Shown piece after piece: positions 11,954 to 47,370 of a DNA stretch of 64,000 nt; position 1 is the first letter of the stretch; every line of letters starts with the position of its first letter. Position numbers and translations under genes: made by a program. The stretch lies in the NCBI RefSeq assembly GCF_010686655.1, contig NZ_JAAGVY010000002.1, forward strand, positions 186,001 through 250,000, in the 5' to 3' direction. Source of the DNA: Cryomorpha ignava (lineage in GTDB: Bacteria > Bacteroidota > Bacteroidia > Flavobacteriales_D > Cryomorphaceae). The notes below the pieces were generated by a model. It ran no database searches. It was not told the origin of the DNA and worked only from the letters and a program-made list of their open reading frames with translations.

Positions 11954-12418
11954 TTGAAACTAACAGAACTAAGACAAAGACCCGATCTGAAAGCTAACGA
12001 CAAGCTGGAAAGCGCCTATATCCAGTTTGGCAAACTCATCAGTGAGCTTAATGCTAAGGAGATACCAAATGAAGTGGCTCTCGCGATCAACAAAGAAATT
12101 GAAGACCTAAACACCACCACAGACTCGGGTAAGGATTTGAGAAACCACATTCGGCAGAATCAAACACGGATCATCAAACTACTCGAAAAAGAAGTAAAAC
12201 TTGTCACCAGGAATCACCACCGCAACACGTGGTTGGCCATTGGTATGGCAGCCTTTGGCATTCCACTTGGAGTGGCTTTTGGCGCAAGCCTTGGCAATAT
12301 GGCTTTTATCGGAATAGGATTGCCCATTGGCCTGGCAATCGGAGTGGCGGTGGGAACAAAATTAGATAACAAAGCTGCAGAAGAAGGACGACAACTTGAT
12401 TTGGAATTGAAGTATTGA
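11954..12418 (+). CDS. Small protein with glycine-zipper membrane segment
   Basis: A 154-residue protein starting from TTG. The N-terminal 90 residues are helical and charged (LRQRPDLKANDKLESAYIQF; NQTRIIKLLEKEVKLVTRNHH). A glycine-rich hydrophobic region follows (AIGMAAFGIPLGVAFG, then IGIGLPIGLAIGVAVG) with regular small residues, as in glycine-zipper membrane helices that can oligomerise. The short C-terminus is charged. Function unknown; the architecture recurs in Bacteroidota hypothetical proteins. Confidence 0.6.
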   Translation: MKLTELRQRPDLKANDKLESAYIQFGKLISELNAKEIPNEVALAINKEIEDLNTTTDSGKDLRNHIRQNQTRIIKLLEKEVKLVTRNHHRNTWLAIGMAAFGIPLGVAFGASLGNMAFIGIGLPIGLAIGVAVGTKLDNKAAEEGRQLDLELKY

Positions 12419-12610
12419 GGGGGAGTTGGGTTTTGTCGATTTTGTTTGAGTCTTTATGTTTCTAAATTCATCTTTGCTATCAACCTATAAAATCCCATGC
12501 ACGCATTCCGGAAGGAGTTGGGTTACCTCCGCCTTAATTTTCTTATACTTGTTAAAACGAAACAGTTGAGCAGATGGGTTTGATATCTACTATTTTAAGT
12601 CCGTATGAGT

Positions 12611-12652
12611 AATAAGTTTAAATAGTTGCTCTTATTGAATTATTACCAGCAA
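12611..12652 (+). repeat. Repeat related to 4582-4623
   Basis: Shares TAGTTGC, TTATTGAATT and TT(G/A)C in the same order with the segment before the gene at 4631. No gene starts directly after this copy, so a purely promoter role is less likely. Confidence 0.4.
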
Positions 12653-12701
12653 TTGAAGAAAAAACAGAAATAAATTCGAGAAATGAATAAAAAGCCAGGG
12701 C

Positions 12702-12748
12702 CTGAGGTATAGAGTGTATAACCTGTGGGATCCACACCATACAGTTGC
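12702..12748. repeat. Family-1 repeat, copy B
   Basis: The right arm at 12727-12744 matches copy A at 16 of 18 positions; the left arm contains TATAGAGTG where copy A has TATAGTG. It lies 60 bases before the antitoxin gene at 12809. Confidence 0.45.
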
Positions 12749-12808
12749 ATAATCTACCAGAATTTGATAAGTCACCAGCAATACGTATATTTGAATAAAT
12801 ATTTACGT

Positions 12809-38107: not shown

Positions 38108-39331
38108 TTAAACTTTTTCACTCCCCACCTTTATCCACGCGTCAGCTACTTCTTGCCACGGGTAGGTTTCGCCAGCTTTTGAAACACTATCCATTTGCGC
38201 TAGCAGTTCTTGAATTCTCGCCGAGATTGAATGAAGAGACTCTGCATTGTGTTCGTGGTTGGCCCATGAGCGTCCGTATTCCGTCCAGTAGTTCTCCACA
38301 GCTCCAGTGTAATCGGCTTGAAGCTGATCGGCTGGAATTGCGTTGGTGGTCGAAACTTCAATTCTTTCGCTATAGCTTACAGCTGTAACGCCTTCCTGAA
38401 AATTGTCAAAAGTTTGACGCAGCCTGATACCTGGCCATCTCAATTCCATAGCGCCTTCTTTGGGTTGGTACACTGCCGTGTAAATGGTTCCAAAACCCTG
38501 GCTATATTTTCTGTTAAAGAGCGGAGCTTTTAGAAATGCGTCCGCAATTTGCTCGCTTGTGCGTTCGTCTTGAGCCAGCATTTCATGCAAATAAAGCTCA
38601 CGCTCAATAGTCTTTGTAAATGCCGCATGCTCTGGCCAATCTACCACTCCTTGGTGGTTGGTAGAAGCACTGAGGTCGGTGACTACCGGTGCGCGATCTG
38701 GCGCCAGTTGTACCAAATTGTGCTCGCCCTGCTTATTCATCAACATAATGTTGTAACTCATGTGCGAAGGTATACGCTCAAGAGCCGCTACGGCTTCTGT
38801 CAAAGTTGTGCAATATTCCATCACGTAGCGAAGGATAAATGGAATTCCAAATCCAACGCCAACCACTTTTCGGCCGCCAAAGGTTAGCGAAACTACCAGT
38901 CCGCTGTCGTTCATTCCATCTACCACGCCAATAAGGCAATCGCCCATGGCTATTACGCTGCGGCCATTCCAGGCAGATTGCAGCAAAGTGCCTTCACTAA
39001 GGTTCGGATCAAAATCGTAATTGCGCACCAATTGTGCTTCTTTTTCGCTTACTATCTGAGCGCATCCGCTTATGTAAGCTGGTGGTTGATAGCCGGTAAG
39101 AAAACGATGTGCCACCGGATCTGGCCCCGCCAATTTGCAAAGGTGGAGATAGGTGGGATAAAACTCGGGCATGTACTTTTTCAACTGAGCCCGGCAGGTT
39201 TTTAAGTCGGGACTATTGGCATTCATTTTCGATAAATACCAGCCTTTGTATGCCGGCCAGTGTTTCTGAAAAAGTTTTTGCCATTTTTTTCCGGGTTTCT
39301 TTTCGGATATTGAGTGAATATCAAGATTCAT
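38108..39331 (-). CDS. C45-family Ntn acyltransferase/hydrolase
   Basis: The 407-residue protein has an N-terminal helical part, then YISGCAQIV in which Cys90 is the expected N-terminal nucleophile after self-cleavage, followed by LVRNYDFDP (conserved Asn/Asp), GMNDSGLVVSLTFGGR and the ASTNHQG segment. These are marks of the acyl-CoA:6-aminopenicillanate acyltransferase-like (C45) Ntn hydrolases, which cleave or exchange amide-bound acyl groups. It is the distal gene of a minus-strand cluster, separated by 640 bases from the ATP-grasp gene, so it may have its own promoter. Substrate unknown. Confidence 0.85.
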   Translation of the reverse strand: MNLDIHSISEKKPGKKWQKLFQKHWPAYKGWYLSKMNANSPDLKTCRAQLKKYMPEFYPTYLHLCKLAGPDPVAHRFLTGYQPPAYISGCAQIVSEKEAQLVRNYDFDPNLSEGTLLQSAWNGRSVIAMGDCLIGVVDGMNDSGLVVSLTFGGRKVVGVGFGIPFILRYVMEYCTTLTEAVAALERIPSHMSYNIMLMNKQGEHNLVQLAPDRAPVVTDLSASTNHQGVVDWPEHAAFTKTIERELYLHEMLAQDERTSEQIADAFLKAPLFNRKYSQGFGTIYTAVYQPKEGAMELRWPGIRLRQTFDNFQEGVTAVSYSERIEVSTTNAIPADQLQADYTGAVENYWTEYGRSWANHEHNAESLHSISARIQELLAQMDSVSKAGETYPWQEVADAWIKVGSEKV

Positions 39332-39969: not shown

Positions 39970-41820
39970 TTACTTCATCAAGTTCGTGCTCAACTCTTGC
40001 GCCAAAACACGTTTATCTTCAACTATTGTAGAAGCATACTGACCTTGAATGGCTGCAATCCATTTCTTGGCGCGAGCATTCAACTGAAATGAATCTGTCA
40101 TCATTCTTCCACGCGAAACCAAAATTCCCATGTCGGCACCTTCGTATAGGTAGTCGCCTTGTTTGGTAATGCGCATGAAGAAGGCTTCACTCTCACTTTC
40201 TACCGCCCGTCTGTGCGTGTCCATTCGGTCAAACTGAATATGGCCGTTGTCAAACATTTTCCAGATACCCGATCTTGGAGCTTGATCAACGTATTCAATG
40301 GTATCGGCTGTGTGCTTCACAATAAGCTGACTCCAGCTGTCCACATTTTCTTCGGTTGACCAGCGGTCGTTGAGTGCTGTTACATCTAGTTCGTAATCTA
40401 CGTCCATCCACTCCAAAATATGGAAGATAAAAAGTGGAGCATCTGCCAGTGCAAATACGGCATGGTTCGTAATTGAGCTTGCACCCGTAACACGTGGATT
40501 TAACTCGCCAAGGTAAATTTCTCCATTATCCTGATCAATCAGGTAATCCAATTCGAAATAGCCTTTGTAACCTTCTTTTCGAAGCTGATCTCCAAAAAGA
40601 CGGGTGTATTTTCGGGCTTTCTCTCTCAATTCGGGTGTAAATGCTCCCGGGTAAATCTCGTTTCCGCACCAACCACCTTTGTAAGGGGTAAGTTCTTTAA
40701 ATCCGACCAATTCTGTCATTAGCGGAGCTACAACAGTTCCGTGTTTGGTTACGCAGGCTTCAATTGCAGAACCTTTACAATTGATGCGTTTCATTATTTT
40801 TACTTCTTTCTCTTGCTCTATCTCGTCGGCATATTTGTTATACTCTGCTTCATTCGAGATGAAAAAAGTGGTATGGCCGGAATCACCAAAGGGCGTTTGA
40901 ATTACCAAATCGTTTCCGAGCTTGGTGGTGAGTTTTTGAAGGTGCTCGTAGTTCTTAACTTCTGATAGTACGTTAGGAACGCATGGTACACCGGCTTTCA
41001 TCGCCAATCTGTTCGTATTTACTTTGTTGTCGAGAAAGGTGCGCATCTTTGCAGAAGGAAACATAATTTCCAGTCCTTGTTTTTTTGCTAACTTCTCTGT
41101 TTCTTCATTAAACATCAAAAACATGGCTTTACCGGCTTTCTTGCCTTTAGACCTGGTTTTAAGATAGTCTTGCACTTCAGGGTGCATCAGCAAGTAGTTG
41201 TTGATGTCTTCGATACTTGTAAAATCATCGTGTGGAATTTCTTCTTTCGGTGAAAATACGTTGGGGTGAAGTCCGTCGAAACATTCAATGTAACTGACAA
41301 ACTTAAAGCTCTTAATCCATTCATCTGCACCCAAAAGGTTAAAATTGGTGGCACTGATGAAATATATAGGGACTTCGTTTTTGTGAAAGTACCTGCGAAT
41401 ATCAGCTACGCCTTTCAATTTCATTGATGCAGCCTTATTAGCTGTGGGACGTTTTTTGGCGGAAGTCTTTTTCTTGACCGCCTTCTTAACAACGGTTTTG
41501 TTTGCTGCGGCTTTTTTGGCCACAGGCGTTTTAGCAGCTGGTTTCTTTGCAGTTGCTTTCTTTGCAGTTGCTTTCTTTGCAGTTGCTTTCTTTGCTGCAG
41601 GCTTCTTAGCGTCAACGCCAGTCGTTACGGGTTTTGCAGCAGCCGTAGGCTTTTCTGCTGCCGTATTCTTAGTCGCTGGATTATTGGCCTTAGCTTTCTT
41701 AGCTGCCGGTTTTTTAGCGGCATTACTTGCAGATGCCGGTTTTGCAGATGCAGCTGGTATACCCGATTTTGTTTTTTTCTCTTCTGTCTTTTTAGCGTTC
41801 TTCGTATCTGTAGTTGCCAT
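39970..41820 (-). CDS. ATP-grasp ligase with histone-H1-like Lys/Ala/Pro tail
   Basis: Of 616 residues, the first 130 are a low-complexity basic tail of AKK, PAAKK and ATAKK repeats. The rest is a carboxylate-amine ligase: PSAKMRTFLDNKVNTNRLAM (pre-ATP helix), VIQTPFGDSGHTTFFIS (nucleotide loop), IMKRINCKGSAIEACVTKHG and GYFELDYLID ... EIYLGELNPRVTGAS (Mg ligands Glu/Glu/Asn). It starts one base after the decarboxylase stop. It should join a carboxylate to an amine using ATP. The tail may bind nucleic acid or other polyanions; its role is unknown. Confidence 0.85.
   Translation of the reverse strand: MATTDTKNAKKTEEKKTKSGIPAASAKPASASNAAKKPAAKKAKANNPATKNTAAEKPTAAAKPVTTGVDAKKPAAKKATAKKATAKKATAKKPAAKTPVAKKAAANKTVVKKAVKKKTSAKKRPTANKAASMKLKGVADIRRYFHKNEVPIYFISATNFNLLGADEWIKSFKFVSYIECFDGLHPNVFSPKEEIPHDDFTSIEDINNYLLMHPEVQDYLKTRSKGKKAGKAMFLMFNEETEKLAKKQGLEIMFPSAKMRTFLDNKVNTNRLAMKAGVPCVPNVLSEVKNYEHLQKLTTKLGNDLVIQTPFGDSGHTTFFISNEAEYNKYADEIEQEKEVKIMKRINCKGSAIEACVTKHGTVVAPLMTELVGFKELTPYKGGWCGNEIYPGAFTPELREKARKYTRLFGDQLRKEGYKGYFELDYLIDQDNGEIYLGELNPRVTGASSITNHAVFALADAPLFIFHILEWMDVDYELDVTALNDRWSTEENVDSWSQLIVKHTADTIEYVDQAPRSGIWKMFDNGHIQFDRMDTHRRAVESESEAFFMRITKQGDYLYEGADMGILVSRGRMMTDSFQLNARAKKWIAAIQGQYASTIVEDKRVLAQELSTNLMK
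41542..41586. repeat. Three tandem 15-bp units in the ATP-grasp tail
   Basis: Three identical copies of TTTCTTTGCAGTTGC (41542-41556, 41557-41571, 41572-41586) and a partial fourth encode the ATAKK pentapeptides. Such an array can gain or lose units by slippage without breaking the frame. Confidence 0.9.
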
Positions 41821-41821
41821 T

Positions 41822-44593
41822 TTATTTATTGTTTTTGTTAGTACCAGCCTTTATTTTCTTGTTAGAAATCCCCGGCCGGCCGATGGCTCCGATGGAAGTC
41901 GCTGTCATTTGTCTGTCTAATACGCTTTGCTTGAAAACGCGTAATCCCAAATCGGCGCGATAACCGTGTATTTCTGTAACATCCAGAGCAAGCATGAATT
42001 TTATAATTTCTTCTGTGGCTACCTGCCCAGGCACTAAAACTGGAAAGCCCGGTGGATAAGGTATTACGAATGATGATGCCACCAGTTCCTTATTCTTTGC
42101 CATCTCGGCAAGGCAATCTTCAAGCGGAATATACGTATAATTTTCTTCGTCGTAAGTTAGAAAGTAAGCTTCGCGCAAATTTCCACCCGGAATGCCCGGA
42201 ACCGCTTGAAAAGATGTGTGGAAATAACTGAAATCAGGTAGGGGTGGTACATCGTTTGTGAGCGACCAAACCTTTTTATTGTGAATCTCAAGTTCGCGAG
42301 CATCAAGGGCATGTAATCCGCTGTCGAGCATTTCAGAAATGCGCAGCAAAGCATTGATCAAATAAGTAATGCTTCCGCGGCTTGTGCCAATATTGGTCAT
42401 AAAAAGCACGGTATTACGCGATGTCTTATTGATCTGGATATTAAATTTATCCATCAAAAACTTGTTCTTAAACGTATCGCCATCCACACCAGTGCGACCA
42501 ATGTGTAAGGTAATCTTGGTTGGATCAAGCACAAATTCATCTTCAGCCCAAGCGGTTTCCATTCGGTTCCAACCTTTATCTCTGGTGTAGTATTCGGCAA
42601 TGTCCGTTTGGCGGTATTTCGATGGAATAAAATCTTTAACCGTAAGCACATCAAAATACTTGTTTAGCGCCGGGTCATCGTTAATTTTGGCACGAAGCGA
42701 CATAGCGAGTTCAATGCCGCGCTCTACCAATTCATATCCTTCAAATTGTACCTGCCGTCGGCCTGCATCAAGCGAAGCCAGCATTTGATAATTTGGCGAA
42801 GTGGAAGTATGCGTCATGTAGGCTTCCATAAATGTCGCCTGGCTTTTTCGGCGGAAATCCTGATCCCAAATATGAATCATCGATCCCTGTCGGAAGCTAC
42901 TCAACGTTTTGTGCGTGCTTTGGGTGGCATAAGCGCGTATGCGTACCTTATCTGGGTCTGGCAAGCAAGGTTGTTCGCCTTCCGCCAATGACTTTATATG
43001 CGCGTCATATTCTTCGCGATATGCAGCAGTTTGGTATCTCTTCTCCAGCTTTTTAGCCACAAACATAGCTGTACGCTTTTTGAAGGTGTATGTAAATCCG
43101 GCAAAGGCAAACCAGGCTTCATCCCACAGGAAAACCATATCGGGCTTAATAGCCAATACTTCTTCCATCATGCGCTCTACATTGTACACCATTCCATCAA
43201 ATGTGCAATTTGTTAAGAGCAACATTTTTACTTTATCCAGTCTTCCGCTTTTGCGAAGAAGGTGGAGTTTCTCGATGATCTCATGCCGGGGAACGGCGCC
43301 ATACATCGAATATTTTTCAATAGGGTAGGAGTCAAGATACACTGGAAAGGCGCCCGAAAGTACAAGTCCGTAATGATGTGATTTGTGGCAATCGCGGTCA
43401 ATAAGCACCACGTCTCCGGGAGCTACGATGGCCTGCATTACTATTTTATTGGCTGTAGAAGTTCCGTTTGTCACCAAAAAGGTATGCATAGAACCGTAGG
43501 CGTCGCGGCACATTTCCTGCGCCTTTTTAAGCGGCCCTGTGGGTTGAAGTAAGGAGTCAAGGCCACCGGTAGTAGCAGAAGTTTCGGCCAGAAAAAGATT
43601 GCGGCCGTAGAAATCACCAAAATCGCGGATCCAGCGGGATTTGAAAATGGAACCACCACGTGAAATCGGCATGGCGTGAAATACACCTGTCGGCTTTTGG
43701 CTGTATTCCATTAATGCAGTAAAAAAGGGAGTCTCATAGCGTTCTGCAATTCCGCGGATGATGCTAAGATGTATTTCCTGAAAATCTTCCTTTCGGTAAA
43801 ATATTCGCCGAAAGGTGTTTATAGTGCTGTCTTTAAGATCAGCTAATACGGTATCGGTTACATAATAGGTATCAATTTCGGGCCTGAACTGTTTAATTAC
43901 TTGTCCCAAAAGAGGACCAAGGTCTTCGTCTTTGCTTTGGACAGGGCCCAAGTCTAACGCATGTTGAATATAAGGCCTGATTAACGGGTCTATTTCTTTC
44001 CATGAAAATGGGGGAGCGTAGCGTATTACTACCGATTGAATGTTGGTATTAAAAAGCAAGGTGATAAGCGCATCCTGAAATGAGCGCTGCACAACCAAAC
44101 TATATCTAAATTGCTCGCTGCTGCTGCGCAAACTTGACAGTTTTTGGCGCATTGCCCGTTCATCGCTTTCAGAAATATTCTCAACCAAAAGTACTTCAAA
44201 ATAATTCTGCTTCGTGCCTTCCGGCTGATCGATAGTTTCAATCTCGTCGCCCTTTTCGTTGTCCATCCGCAATTCTTCGCCACTTCTAAAGCTGTCGCTG
44301 ATCAAGGCTCTCCTAATATCGGCAACGTTATGCGCCATGGCCACATATTCGTGCCGGTTAAAAGCTTCCTGTAGCGACATATATTTTCGCATTCCCGGAA
44401 AGGCAAAATTATGCTCGATTTGAGACAGATTGCTCAATAGAACTTCGCAATCTTTAACCTGGGTCTTGGCCGAAGCAGAACCTTCCGTTGCTTCTGACAA
44501 GCTCACAGATGCCGATCTCAATTTGTTCCAGAGATCCATTCGGAGCTGGCCAATGTTGTAATAGGGAGCGTTAACGACTTTTTTCTTTGTCAT
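41822..44593 (-). CDS. Orn/Lys/Arg decarboxylase-family PLP enzyme with long N-terminus
   Basis: The 923-residue protein has a 320-residue N-terminal part of partly unknown fold (LEVLLVENISESDERAMRQK-like receiver-type strand pattern near 130-170), then a fold-type I PLP domain: TSATTGGLDSLLQPTGPLKK, FLVTNGTSTANKIVMQAIV, GDVVLIDRDCHKSHHYGLVL, FLWDEAWFAFAGF and ATQSTHKTLSSFRQGS with Lys562 as the PLP lysine. The C-terminal VIPYPPGFPVLVPGQ is typical of this decarboxylase group. It should remove CO2 from a basic amino acid; which one cannot be told. Core of the minus-strand operon. Confidence 0.9.
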   Translation of the reverse strand: MTKKKVVNAPYYNIGQLRMDLWNKLRSASVSLSEATEGSASAKTQVKDCEVLLSNLSQIEHNFAFPGMRKYMSLQEAFNRHEYVAMAHNVADIRRALISDSFRSGEELRMDNEKGDEIETIDQPEGTKQNYFEVLLVENISESDERAMRQKLSSLRSSSEQFRYSLVVQRSFQDALITLLFNTNIQSVVIRYAPPFSWKEIDPLIRPYIQHALDLGPVQSKDEDLGPLLGQVIKQFRPEIDTYYVTDTVLADLKDSTINTFRRIFYRKEDFQEIHLSIIRGIAERYETPFFTALMEYSQKPTGVFHAMPISRGGSIFKSRWIRDFGDFYGRNLFLAETSATTGGLDSLLQPTGPLKKAQEMCRDAYGSMHTFLVTNGTSTANKIVMQAIVAPGDVVLIDRDCHKSHHYGLVLSGAFPVYLDSYPIEKYSMYGAVPRHEIIEKLHLLRKSGRLDKVKMLLLTNCTFDGMVYNVERMMEEVLAIKPDMVFLWDEAWFAFAGFTYTFKKRTAMFVAKKLEKRYQTAAYREEYDAHIKSLAEGEQPCLPDPDKVRIRAYATQSTHKTLSSFRQGSMIHIWDQDFRRKSQATFMEAYMTHTSTSPNYQMLASLDAGRRQVQFEGYELVERGIELAMSLRAKINDDPALNKYFDVLTVKDFIPSKYRQTDIAEYYTRDKGWNRMETAWAEDEFVLDPTKITLHIGRTGVDGDTFKNKFLMDKFNIQINKTSRNTVLFMTNIGTSRGSITYLINALLRISEMLDSGLHALDARELEIHNKKVWSLTNDVPPLPDFSYFHTSFQAVPGIPGGNLREAYFLTYDEENYTYIPLEDCLAEMAKNKELVASSFVIPYPPGFPVLVPGQVATEEIIKFMLALDVTEIHGYRADLGLRVFKQSVLDRQMTATSIGAIGRPGISNKKIKAGTNKNNK

Positions 44594-44595
44594 AA

Positions 44596-44976
44596 TTATT
44601 CGGAGTGTAAGGCGAGTTTATTTCCTTCGCTGTCAATGAAAATGGCGAAGTAACCCGACTCTTCATTGATGAATGTTTTGGGCATGATGATGCGTCCGCC
44701 TGCATCGGGCACCCGTGAAAGAATGGTTTCTAGGTCTTTACCACCATTGAGGTAAAGCAATGGCCCAATTTGACCCGGAATAGAACCGGGGCCGTGCACT
44801 ACCGCGCCACCAACACCAGAGCTAGTCGGAAATACGGCCATGGAATGTGTGGAGCTTACCACGCGCTCCATCTTAATGTTATAGATATGATCGTAAAAAG
44901 CAACCGCCTTCTCAAAGTTGAGCGCCGGAATTTCAAACCAACTCACGAAGTCCTTCAGTTTAGTTTCTGTTTTCAT
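44596..44976 (-). CDS. VOC-family (glyoxalase-like) protein
   Basis: ATG at 44976 is preferred to 45000 because GGAAGG lies just upstream; this gives 126 residues. The VOC fold is seen as FVSWFEIPALNFEKAVAFYD, SSTHSMAVFPTSSGVGGAVV, GPLLYLNGGKDLETILSRV, AGGRIIMPKTFI and SGYFAIFIDSEGNKLALHS, with a late Glu/His position as possible metal ligand. VOC proteins catalyse isomerisation, dioxygenation or lyase reactions or act as binding proteins. The two-base spacing to the decarboxylase gene implies co-translation. Confidence 0.88.
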   Translation of the reverse strand: MKTETKLKDFVSWFEIPALNFEKAVAFYDHIYNIKMERVVSSTHSMAVFPTSSGVGGAVVHGPGSIPGQIGPLLYLNGGKDLETILSRVPDAGGRIIMPKTFINEESGYFAIFIDSEGNKLALHSE

Positions 44977-45018
44977 TTTCCTTCCTGTTGTTGATCCCAT
45001 GTTTTAGTTTTTATTTCG

Positions 45019-45139: not shown

Positions 45140-46054
45140 TTAAAAAGTTGGTGCCTGTGGTATTTCCATTTTGTATTCTTCCAGTTTCAATTCGGCAAGT
45201 CTTTCCACCCTTTCAGGTTTAATCAACGGGCCTAACGAATTTAGATAAGTTAAATCGGTACCCGGTTGGTAAATTGTAAATTGCCCGATGTGATCTCTAA
45301 AGCTTTTTAAGGGTTGCCCCAAATGCAGAACACCCAATTCGCGGCTGCGCCTTACTCTTTCGATATTTAGCTCAAGCGGAAAAATCTCTTCATTTCCGCC
45401 GGCCTCATAAAGTACGCGACCATCAGGACCACACACTATCGACCCACCGCTGCCGCCTGTATCCAATCCATTCACATCAAAGAAGAAGCATTGGTTTACT
45501 GCCGCCATGGCTCGGACAATCGAGAGTTCAATTTCGCGGTCTATTGTTCCCGTAAGGGTAGGGTGAAGAATAACTTCGGCTCCCATTAACGCTAAGGTGC
45601 GCACTGTTTCGGGAAACCACATATCGTAGCAAATAGAAACGCCAAATCGGCCTACATCTGGTACATCAAACACGCAGTATTCGCTTCCGGGTGTTACGCC
45701 AACTTCATACGGGTAAAACGGAAACATTTTGCTGTAGCGTTTTACAACTTCTCCTTGTGGATTGATAACAGTGGCGGTATTGTAAATAGCTCCTTCTCTG
45801 TTTTCGAAAACAGAACCCGGCAGTAACCAGATGCCGTACTTTTTGGCAAGAGCCTGCATTTCTGTTTCAAAATGGTTTGGTATAGCTTGCGCGGTTTTAA
45901 TCAACGGCCCGTAAGGACTCAATTCACTAAACACAATCATCTCTACCCAAGGATAAAGATTCATTGTAATATTAATTTTTAGCTTCATCATTTCCACATT
46001 GGGAACGATGGCCGAAACTTTCATTTGAATTCCGGCAATGGCAAATGGCTTCAT
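45140..46054 (-). CDS. Nitrilase-superfamily carbon-nitrogen hydrolase
   Basis: The 304-residue protein shows the Glu-Lys-Cys triad: Glu44 in VFSELSPYG, Lys109 in KRYSKMFPF and Cys142 in VSICYDMWFPE. GVTPGSEYCVFD, RAMAAVNQCFFFDVNG and GGSGGSIVCGPDGRVL match amidase or N-carbamoylputrescine-amidase-like enzymes. It would hydrolyse an amide, carbamoyl or nitrile group on a metabolite. The start overlaps the aminotransferase stop by four bases. A stem-loop separates it from the VOC gene. Confidence 0.9.
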   Translation of the reverse strand: MKPFAIAGIQMKVSAIVPNVEMMKLKINITMNLYPWVEMIVFSELSPYGPLIKTAQAIPNHFETEMQALAKKYGIWLLPGSVFENREGAIYNTATVINPQGEVVKRYSKMFPFYPYEVGVTPGSEYCVFDVPDVGRFGVSICYDMWFPETVRTLALMGAEVILHPTLTGTIDREIELSIVRAMAAVNQCFFFDVNGLDTGGSGGSIVCGPDGRVLYEAGGNEEIFPLELNIERVRRSRELGVLHLGQPLKSFRDHIGQFTIYQPGTDLTYLNSLGPLIKPERVERLAELKLEEYKMEIPQAPTF

Positions 46055-47370
46055 ATAGATTTTTTTATTGATTCTGTGATAGCTGTTTCTAAAATAACGA
46101 GTCCGCGGTTCAATTGTTCGTCAGTAATTACTAGTGGTGAAAGAATGCGAATTATGTTTTTCTCCATTCCGGCACTGATTATTATCAAATCGTTGTGGGC
46201 ACAATGTCGCACTATTTCATTGCACAGATCAGAATCTGGTTGCTCAGGGTCGTTGTGTTTCACGAATTCAATTCCAATCATGGCTCCGAGTCCACGCACA
46301 TCTCCAATGCTACTGTATTGTTTTTTCAGGTTGTGTAAGCGCTGGTTTATCTGGTCGGCTATATAATTAGCACGGGAATTCAAATCCAGCTCTTCCATCA
46401 ATTTGATGGTCGCTAAAGCAGCTGCACAACACACCGGATTTCCGATGTAGGTACCGCCAATGCTGCCAGATGCAGCTGCGTCCATTACTGCGGTGCGTCC
46501 CACTACAGCTGCAATGGGCATTCCCGAACCCATAGATTTGGCGTAAGTGCTAAGGTCGGGCGTTACGCCGTAATGCTGCCATGAAGCCCAATAGCCTGTT
46601 CGACAAAATCCGCTTTGAACTTCATCGATAATGAGCATAATTTCATATTTATCGCAATGGGCGCGCAAGCCTTCCAAATAGCGTTTTGGTACTGGATTAA
46701 ATCCGCCTTCGCCCTGAACTGCTTCAATAATGATGGCAGCTACAATAGATGGGTCTACTAAATTATGGGTACTCTTTTCTAGGTGATCCAATTCCTGATC
46801 GATAAAGGCTTCATAATCCATCCCTTTTCCGTAAAGGTAAAAATTGGGGAAACGCAGTCGATAAACTTCTGGCGCAAAGGGTCCACAACCTATCTTATAA
46901 CCTATTTTGCTAGTCAAAGTCATGGCCATCATAGTGCGACCGTGATAGGCTTCCGAAAAACCAATTACTGCCTGACGGCCAGTAGCTTGTCGGGCAATTT
47001 TAACGGCATTTTCAACTGCTTCGGCGCCGGTGCTCACCAGCATAGCCTTGGTTTCGCCGCCGTGTGGCAGAATTTCGATAAGCTTTTCGCAAAGCTGAAC
47101 ATAAGGCTCATAAGACACTACGTTAAAACTGGTGTGCAGGTATTTTGCGGCTTGTTCTTGAATGGCTTTAACGACCGACTCGGGGCAATGGCCGGCATTC
47201 ACTACGCCAATTCCGCCGGCGAAATCTATTAGCTCTCTTCCGTCAACATCAGTAATGATAGCGCCCCTGGCATGTTGTACAGTGGCAGTGTTGAACACGC
47301 CAACACCATTGGCCACAACTTTTTTTCTCCTTTCCAGGAGTTCTACAGATTTTCTAGTTTCAGCAATCAT
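46051..47370 (-). CDS. Class III aminotransferase (4-aminobutyrate type)
   Basis: The 439-residue protein has ELIDFAGGIGVVNAGHCPES, VSTGAEAVENAVKIARQATG, GFSEAYHGRTMMAMTLTSK, LIIDEVQSGFCRTG (Asp for the PLP ring N), STYAKSMGSGMPIAAVVGR (PLP lysine) and GTYIGNPVCCAAALA. These place it with GabT-type omega-aminotransferases of 4-aminobutyrate, putrescine or related amines. It is the first gene of the minus-strand operon and overlaps the nitrilase gene by four bases. Substrate choice inferred only from family. Confidence 0.92.
   Translation of the reverse strand: MIAETRKSVELLERRKKVVANGVGVFNTATVQHARGAIITDVDGRELIDFAGGIGVVNAGHCPESVVKAIQEQAAKYLHTSFNVVSYEPYVQLCEKLIEILPHGGETKAMLVSTGAEAVENAVKIARQATGRQAVIGFSEAYHGRTMMAMTLTSKIGYKIGCGPFAPEVYRLRFPNFYLYGKGMDYEAFIDQELDHLEKSTHNLVDPSIVAAIIIEAVQGEGGFNPVPKRYLEGLRAHCDKYEIMLIIDEVQSGFCRTGYWASWQHYGVTPDLSTYAKSMGSGMPIAAVVGRTAVMDAAASGSIGGTYIGNPVCCAAALATIKLMEELDLNSRANYIADQINQRLHNLKKQYSSIGDVRGLGAMIGIEFVKHNDPEQPDSDLCNEIVRHCAHNDLIIISAGMEKNIIRILSPLVITDEQLNRGLVILETAITESIKKSI

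Follow-up and report, generated by a model that had tools for sequence, protein, structure and literature searches.

The question raised by this locus is why an ATP-grasp enzyme should begin with a tail that resembles histone H1. H1-like tails usually mark DNA-binding or granule-tethering proteins. In the window, i.e., the whole stretch of 64,000 nucleotides of Cryomorpha ignava DNA that was analyzed, such a tail opens the gene product F1 (Table 1). The ORF list and the sequence place the start of F1 1 bp past the stop of the upstream decarboxylase gene F0. The original prediction had described an ATP-grasp enzyme with an H1-like tail, and both the profile matches and the AlphaFold model agree with this description. 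The predicted tail of about 130 residues, made up of AKK, PAAKK, and ATAKK with three exact 15-bp repeats, was also seen in the sequence, where residues 1-130 contain 37 Lys and 38 Ala. The three copies of GCAACTGCAAAGAAA (41556-41542, 41571-41557, and 41586-41572 on the minus strand) lie in an array detected by TRF at 41534-41595 (4.1 copies, 95% match). Eleven copies of the DNA pattern encoding AKKxxAKK were counted across the 5.0-Mb genome, five of them inside the F1 tail, and the reversed-pattern control gave none. A plus-strand ORF at 41444-41920 (158 aa) was rejected as the mechanical reverse of the tail.

Table 1. Features of the ligase gene and its neighbors in the window.
Feature	Coordinates	Strand	Basis or remark
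F1, predicted ATP-grasp ligase, whole ORF	39970..41820	-	616 aa, ATG start
Histone-H1-like polycationic N-terminal tail of F1, residues 1-130, predicted disordered	41431..41820	-	composition, pLDDT, sub-threshold HC2 match
ATP-grasp core of F1, residues 131-616	39973..41430	-	profile, invariant residues, AlphaFold, Foldseek
Three exact 15-bp repeats, one pentapeptide each	41542..41586	-	read from sequence
ATP/Mg motif ELNPRVTGASS, F1 residues 439-449	40474..40506	-	alignments
F0, Orn/Lys/Arg-type PLP decarboxylase, 923 aa, Lys-rich C-terminus	41822..44593	-	OKR_DC_1
F5, small VOC/glyoxalase-like protein, Lys-rich N-terminus starting MG	44596..45000	-	assigned by eye; without Pfam match
F3, carbon-nitrogen hydrolase (amidase superfamily)	45140..46054	-	PF00795
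F4, class-III aminotransferase, nearest to 4-aminobutyrate transaminases	46051..47370	-	sequence comparison
F6, C45/AAT-type NTN-hydrolase	38108..39331	-	PF03417; NF040521, 159 bits versus cut-off 85

F1 residues 127-607 matched the full-length NCBIfam model NF005096 (PRK06524, "biotin carboxylase"; profile positions 8-486 of 493) with 806 bits, above the curated cut-off of 684, and F1 is thus a member of this family. The model has just ~8 residues ahead of the matched core, whereas the window protein adds ~120. The ATP-grasp core was modelled with confidence by AlphaFold, and Foldseek retrieved biotin carboxylases and PurK (E ~1e-16) at identities of only 12-16%. All of the 41 diverse family members compared share the Mg/ATP residues E439, N441, and R443, and F1 carries, on an ATP-grasp fold, the Mg/ATP ligands of the E-x-N-x-R motif expected of a biotin carboxylase. 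In E. coli biotin carboxylase, the bicarbonate-deprotonating role of a glutamate is established. In the profile alignment, the N-T/P-R-L/I-Q-V-E-H stretch of solved biotin carboxylases corresponds to N-P-R-V-T-G-A-S in F1, with QVE facing TGA; the bicarbonate-activating Glu is absent from F1 in this alignment, and Ala447 is found at its place. A Pfam-type profile search gave no match to the Biotin_carb_C domain in F1, and no biotin carrier protein was found among the operon genes of the loci compared. Since this Glu and this domain are missing, F1 is read as an amide ligase and not as a carboxylase. ATP-grasp enzymes join carboxylates to amines, and from the fold, the lost carboxylase Glu, and the operon context, F1 is more likely an ATP-grasp amide ligase, probably acting on a carboxylate and an amine. 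The term "small-molecule ligase" used in the original prediction is likely to hold, and "biotin carboxylase" seems to be a misnomer for the family, given the absent Glu and the missing C-terminal biotin-carboxylase domain.

The neighbors of F1 recur in the order F4-F3-F5-F0-F1-F6-F2, with short gaps, across 83 loci (window included), some members being missing per locus; F4 denotes a GabT-like aminotransferase and F2 a succinate-semialdehyde-type dehydrogenase. F0 adjoins F1 in nearly all loci compared and matches PDB 9n0n, a "probable amino acid decarboxylase", over its full length (777 bits). The PLP-lysine motif STHK was present in 79 of 83 F0 sequences, some of which are incomplete, and the SICYD cysteine motif in 64 of 71 F3 homologues; no solved homologue of F6 was found by sequence search. 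In the genome of the window, a relative of F2 (67%) is located on another contig and not in the window operon. This SSADH-like partner lies on contig C1 (G000:C1, L164:6790-8145 and 12054-12755), ~4 kb from a gene homologous to F8, a family of 233 aa found with the operon at eight other loci.

The NF005096 relatives in Proteobacteria have C45 and decarboxylase neighbors as in the window, and the F1-F6 pair is kept. In Roseobacter it is joined by F0 and a C-N hydrolase, with gabT close by; in rhizobia its neighbors are F0 and ABC transporters; and in Shinella and Roseateles (L225, L229) it lies beside agmatinase, 5-guanidino-2-oxopentanoate decarboxylase, aldehyde dehydrogenase, D-amino-acid dehydrogenase, and racemase genes. 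The conserved pathway neighbors expected of an arginine/ornithine-to-GABA catabolic operon were found, and the arginine/guanidinobutyrate neighbors point to an operon for the breakdown of arginine, or of a related basic amino acid, to GABA. This gene context suggests that F1 and the C45 hydrolase belong to arginine-to-GABA catabolism. F1 would then take part in a route by which a basic amino acid, probably arginine/ornithine or its amine, is degraded to GABA and on to succinate. As a working guess, it may acylate or glutamylate an amine intermediate for protection, which F6 or F3 would later free, in a Puu-like manner. The Puu pathway, in which putrescine is gamma-glutamylated, and the GABA shunt share with this operon the logic of an amine, a ligase, a hydrolase, a GABA transaminase, and a succinate-semialdehyde dehydrogenase. 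However, F1 is an ATP-grasp enzyme and not glutamine-synthetase-like, the hydrolases are of the C45 and C-N types, and the parallel in substrate is one of analogy.

The tail was then compared across 107 family members from Bacteroidota, Balneolota, Ignavibacteriota, Calditrichota, and one Planctomycetota MAG, each tail being taken mechanically from the first in-frame ATG. Tail length ranged from 3 to 173 aa (median 31), with 63 tails of at least 20 aa, 39 of at least 50 aa, and 10 of at least 100 aa. A net positive charge was found in 105 of the 107 tails and in all 63 of those reaching 20 aa, which are composed of 27.6% Lys, 12.7% Ala, and 12.4% Thr with aromatics nearly absent; the median net charge of the core is -10. 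A maximum-likelihood phylogeny of the core requires 12 changes to account for tails of at least 40 aa, at least six of these changes being forced by well-supported branches, and long tails are thus reconstructed as having arisen at least six times in the family. The relatives that group with the window protein have stubs of 10-15 aa, so that its 130-aa tail represents a separate expansion of its own. The same operon is found in many relatives whose ligase bears a stub of 3-15 aa only, and the proteobacterial relatives as annotated have almost no tail (the shortest starts give 2-5 aa); the tail is thus not needed for catalysis. Slippage-type variation in length, which the original prediction had proposed to look for among strains, was seen between species (e.g., 74 versus 96 aa, in frame), the level that the comparison covers.

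In Shinella (L225:6908-8446) and Sinorhizobium RAC02 (L230:8908-10446), an in-frame upstream ATG adds a very basic N-terminus of ~28 aa (MSKKKKEKKKEKKRDKRKKHSK), which is left out of the annotation of the Shinella record; the EG codons that follow it, just ahead of the annotated start, could represent a Shine-Dalgarno sequence. Two candidates were discarded: a 1504-aa decarboxylase-ligase fusion in L117, which proved spurious, its open frame in GC-rich DNA crossing the upstream gene in a different reading frame, and an 82-aa "tail" in L126, which is hydrophobic and probably reflects a wrong start choice. The motif KTGTDRTKIPIRGK, common to the tails of the Gramella/Gillisia/Psychroflexus clade, had one strong match in six genomes, the tail itself, and no strong match outside the ligase tail in these genomes. 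A search for a phage homologue found none.

A second, unrelated ATP-grasp protein is encoded 2.7-4.1 kb ahead of window position 1 (G000:C2:181910-183328; L163:5911-7329). It has a C-terminal PAAKK/AKK tail of ~150 aa, and its cluster contains, as judged by eye, a GCS2-type ligase, a glutamine-amidotransferase-like gene, an esterase, and another ATP-grasp-like gene. Among its relatives, the C-terminal tails vary and are mostly basic, and two of them carry a repeated AT-hook-like KRRGRPAK. Variable basic tails in most of the F1 family and in this second family contradict the view, held in the original prediction, that such tails are foreign to small-molecule ligases. The AT-hook core RGRP was also observed in six F1-family tails (0.1 expected in shuffles), all from one clade, and probably reflects one event.

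No in-frame ATG was found within the tail or the first eight core codons in 42 of the 63 tails of at least 20 aa, and 10 of these 63 have no ATG, GTG, or TTG there. In close pairs, the tail dN/dS was mostly 0.12-0.3, with a few pairs up to 0.77 (approximate values, the alignments being repetitive), and third-position changes prevail; the core gave ~0.01-0.03. The basic tails common among relatives, the lack of internal ATGs, and the purifying selection thus run against the possibility that relatives have no tail and that an internal start is used, which the original prediction had named as its own refutation. In the window protein itself, translation could possibly begin at the internal Met133 instead of the ATG. 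Furthermore, the K+R share of long tails was flat over a GC3 range of 0.22-0.97 (rho 0.01, p 0.96, n = 44), the use of AAG in tails tracked that of the core, and GC-rich genomes added Arg. Because K+R is independent of GC3, it is the charge of the protein that is kept and not the DNA composition. An origin of the long tails from A-rich DNA or start-region bias was ruled out by this GC3 test, and such bias may lie behind the short stubs. The charge kept at any GC3, together with purifying selection on the tail codons, indicates that the tail is made as protein and that selection maintains its charge.

These data also bear on the idea that the tail is a low-complexity expansion with no specific function, nearly neutral, that began at an A-rich Lys-coding start (MTKKK-type stubs) and grew by slippage. 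Such an expansion would account for the frequent stubs of 5-15 aa, the exact 15-bp repeats, the hypervariable tail length, and the Lys codons at the 3' end of F0 beside the F1 start. It is nevertheless unlikely, as it fits poorly with a tail dN/dS well under 1, with the uniformly positive charge of the tails of at least 20 aa, with the retention of charge through AAG and Arg in GC-rich genomes, and with the recurrence of the tail on a second ligase family at the opposite terminus.

AlphaFold predicted no secondary structure in the window tail, with pLDDT values of 39-49 in 10-residue blocks. The tail scored 31.3 bits against HC2 (cut-off 40) and 25.3 bits against NF038053 (Burkholderia H1-like; cut-off 80), below both thresholds. 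AlgP and PhaF of Pseudomonas (KPAA-repeat H1-like) likewise have a long, disordered K/A/P/T tail of similar size and repeat type on an unrelated protein; these tails bind DNA, and a role in tethering granules to the nucleoid has been ascribed to them (PMC9239181). They are, however, C-terminal and borne by granule-associated proteins, whereas the F1 tail is N-terminal, on a ligase, and known here from its sequence. The chlamydial and Bordetella H1-like proteins Hc2 and BpH1 share with F1 Lys-rich pentapeptide repeats and in-frame length variation, as in the Lys-rich pentamers of Hc2 that vary in length (PMC2848022), but they are stand-alone nucleoproteins. Actinobacterial topoisomerase I is, like F1, a catalytic enzyme with a lysine-repeat tail, and there the repeats raise residence on DNA (PMC7398561), the enzyme's own polymer substrate, whereas F1 has no known nucleic-acid substrate. 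Our literature searches, which did not extend to earlier ATP-grasp ligase surveys (e.g., the 2009 amidoligase survey), returned no paper on this tail, ligase family, or operon. The tail is of a known type that seems not to have been described for this ligase family in the literature searched.

From the computed selection, disorder, repeated gain, and operon context, we infer binding to a polyanion, and with it the identity of that polyanion, a substrate, and a benefit to the cell. We hold with moderate confidence that F1 is an amide ligase of basic-amino-acid catabolism whose charge-selected disordered tail tethers it electrostatically to a polyanion, most likely nucleic acid. The N-terminal extension would be a translated disordered polycation, the sequence of which drifts almost freely while its positive charge is selected, and it would hold the ligase on nucleic acid or, alternatively, on polyphosphate. 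The polycation tether or nucleic-acid binding put forward in the original prediction is thus favored, on indirect evidence. Against it stand the short stubs of so many relatives and the restriction of RGRP to one clade of ligase tails, and it is hard to see why a catabolic ligase should be placed on nucleic acid. If the tether is true, it would offer a simple, evolvable means of placing metabolic ligases in bacterial cells; an H1-like tail, repeatedly gained and with its charge under selection, is here found on a probable enzyme of amino-acid breakdown.

The ends of the partner enzymes were also considered. The N-termini of F5 and the C-termini of F0 are basic in ~70% of loci, whereas the corresponding fractions are 0-0.14 for the ends of F2, F3, F4, and F6 and 0.14-0.21 for background ORFs. 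This pattern, the net acidic character of the ATP-grasp core and of most operon enzymes, and the strongly conserved operon order would suit a basic tail that binds acidic operon partners and builds a metabolon. Such docking is decidedly unlikely, since the tail sequence is unconserved between clades, unlike a docking motif, and the same operon occurs with stub-bearing ligases. Under the tether to a polyanion, F0 and F5 would perhaps be held along with the ligase through their basic termini; these ends could reflect such co-tethering or, for F0, just a shared A-rich gene junction. Among the F5 homologues (L031-L102), the conserved basic N-terminus starts with MG in 60 of 62 cases, followed by a lysine run (MGGxxxKKKK).

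It is also conceivable, if quite improbable, that the ligase conjugates its carboxylate substrate onto its own tail lysines, from which the C45 or C-N hydrolase would release it. The known chemistry of the fold, the Lys tails on two different ATP-grasp ligases of this genome, and the two hydrolases of the operon agree with this scheme, but no conserved acceptor motif was seen, and members with 0-3 tail lysines retain the same operon, so that tail lysines are not obligatory acceptors. Finally, a Lys-rich leader that senses Lys-tRNA supply or enhances solubility or expression, and is no binding element, would match the Orn/Lys/Arg-type decarboxylase of the operon and the Lys run at the very start of the ORF, but it is the least probable reading, as the second ATP-grasp family has its tail at the C-terminus and the abundant Arg of GC-rich tails fits charge rather than lysine sensing.

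Beyond the tether of F1 itself, a broader and rather speculative proposal is that Bacteroidota have repeatedly given polycationic tails to at least two unrelated families of ATP-grasp amide ligases, with small-molecule or protein-tagging ligation taking place on the nucleoid, the ribosome, or polyphosphate, whether to localize metabolism or because the real substrate is a protein bound to nucleic acid. With natural tails of 3-173 aa on a strongly conserved core, the family already offers an experimental series in tail length, and the finding also flags a doubtful family name and an uncharacterized, widely conserved catabolic operon.

Strict AKK triple repeats were searched for in 40 genomes of the class, and their distribution counts in favor of the tether. 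Beyond this ligase, they were found in topoisomerase I C-termini, bTHX-like ribosomal proteins, stand-alone H1-like proteins, a DksA/TraR-like protein, and one 198-aa protein of unclear type, all identities being assigned by eye. In the genome of the window, a bTHX-like ribosomal protein with a long AKK tail is encoded at ~16.3 kb of contig C49 (G000), and a 185-aa Lys-rich H1-like protein at ~9.3 kb of contig C68.
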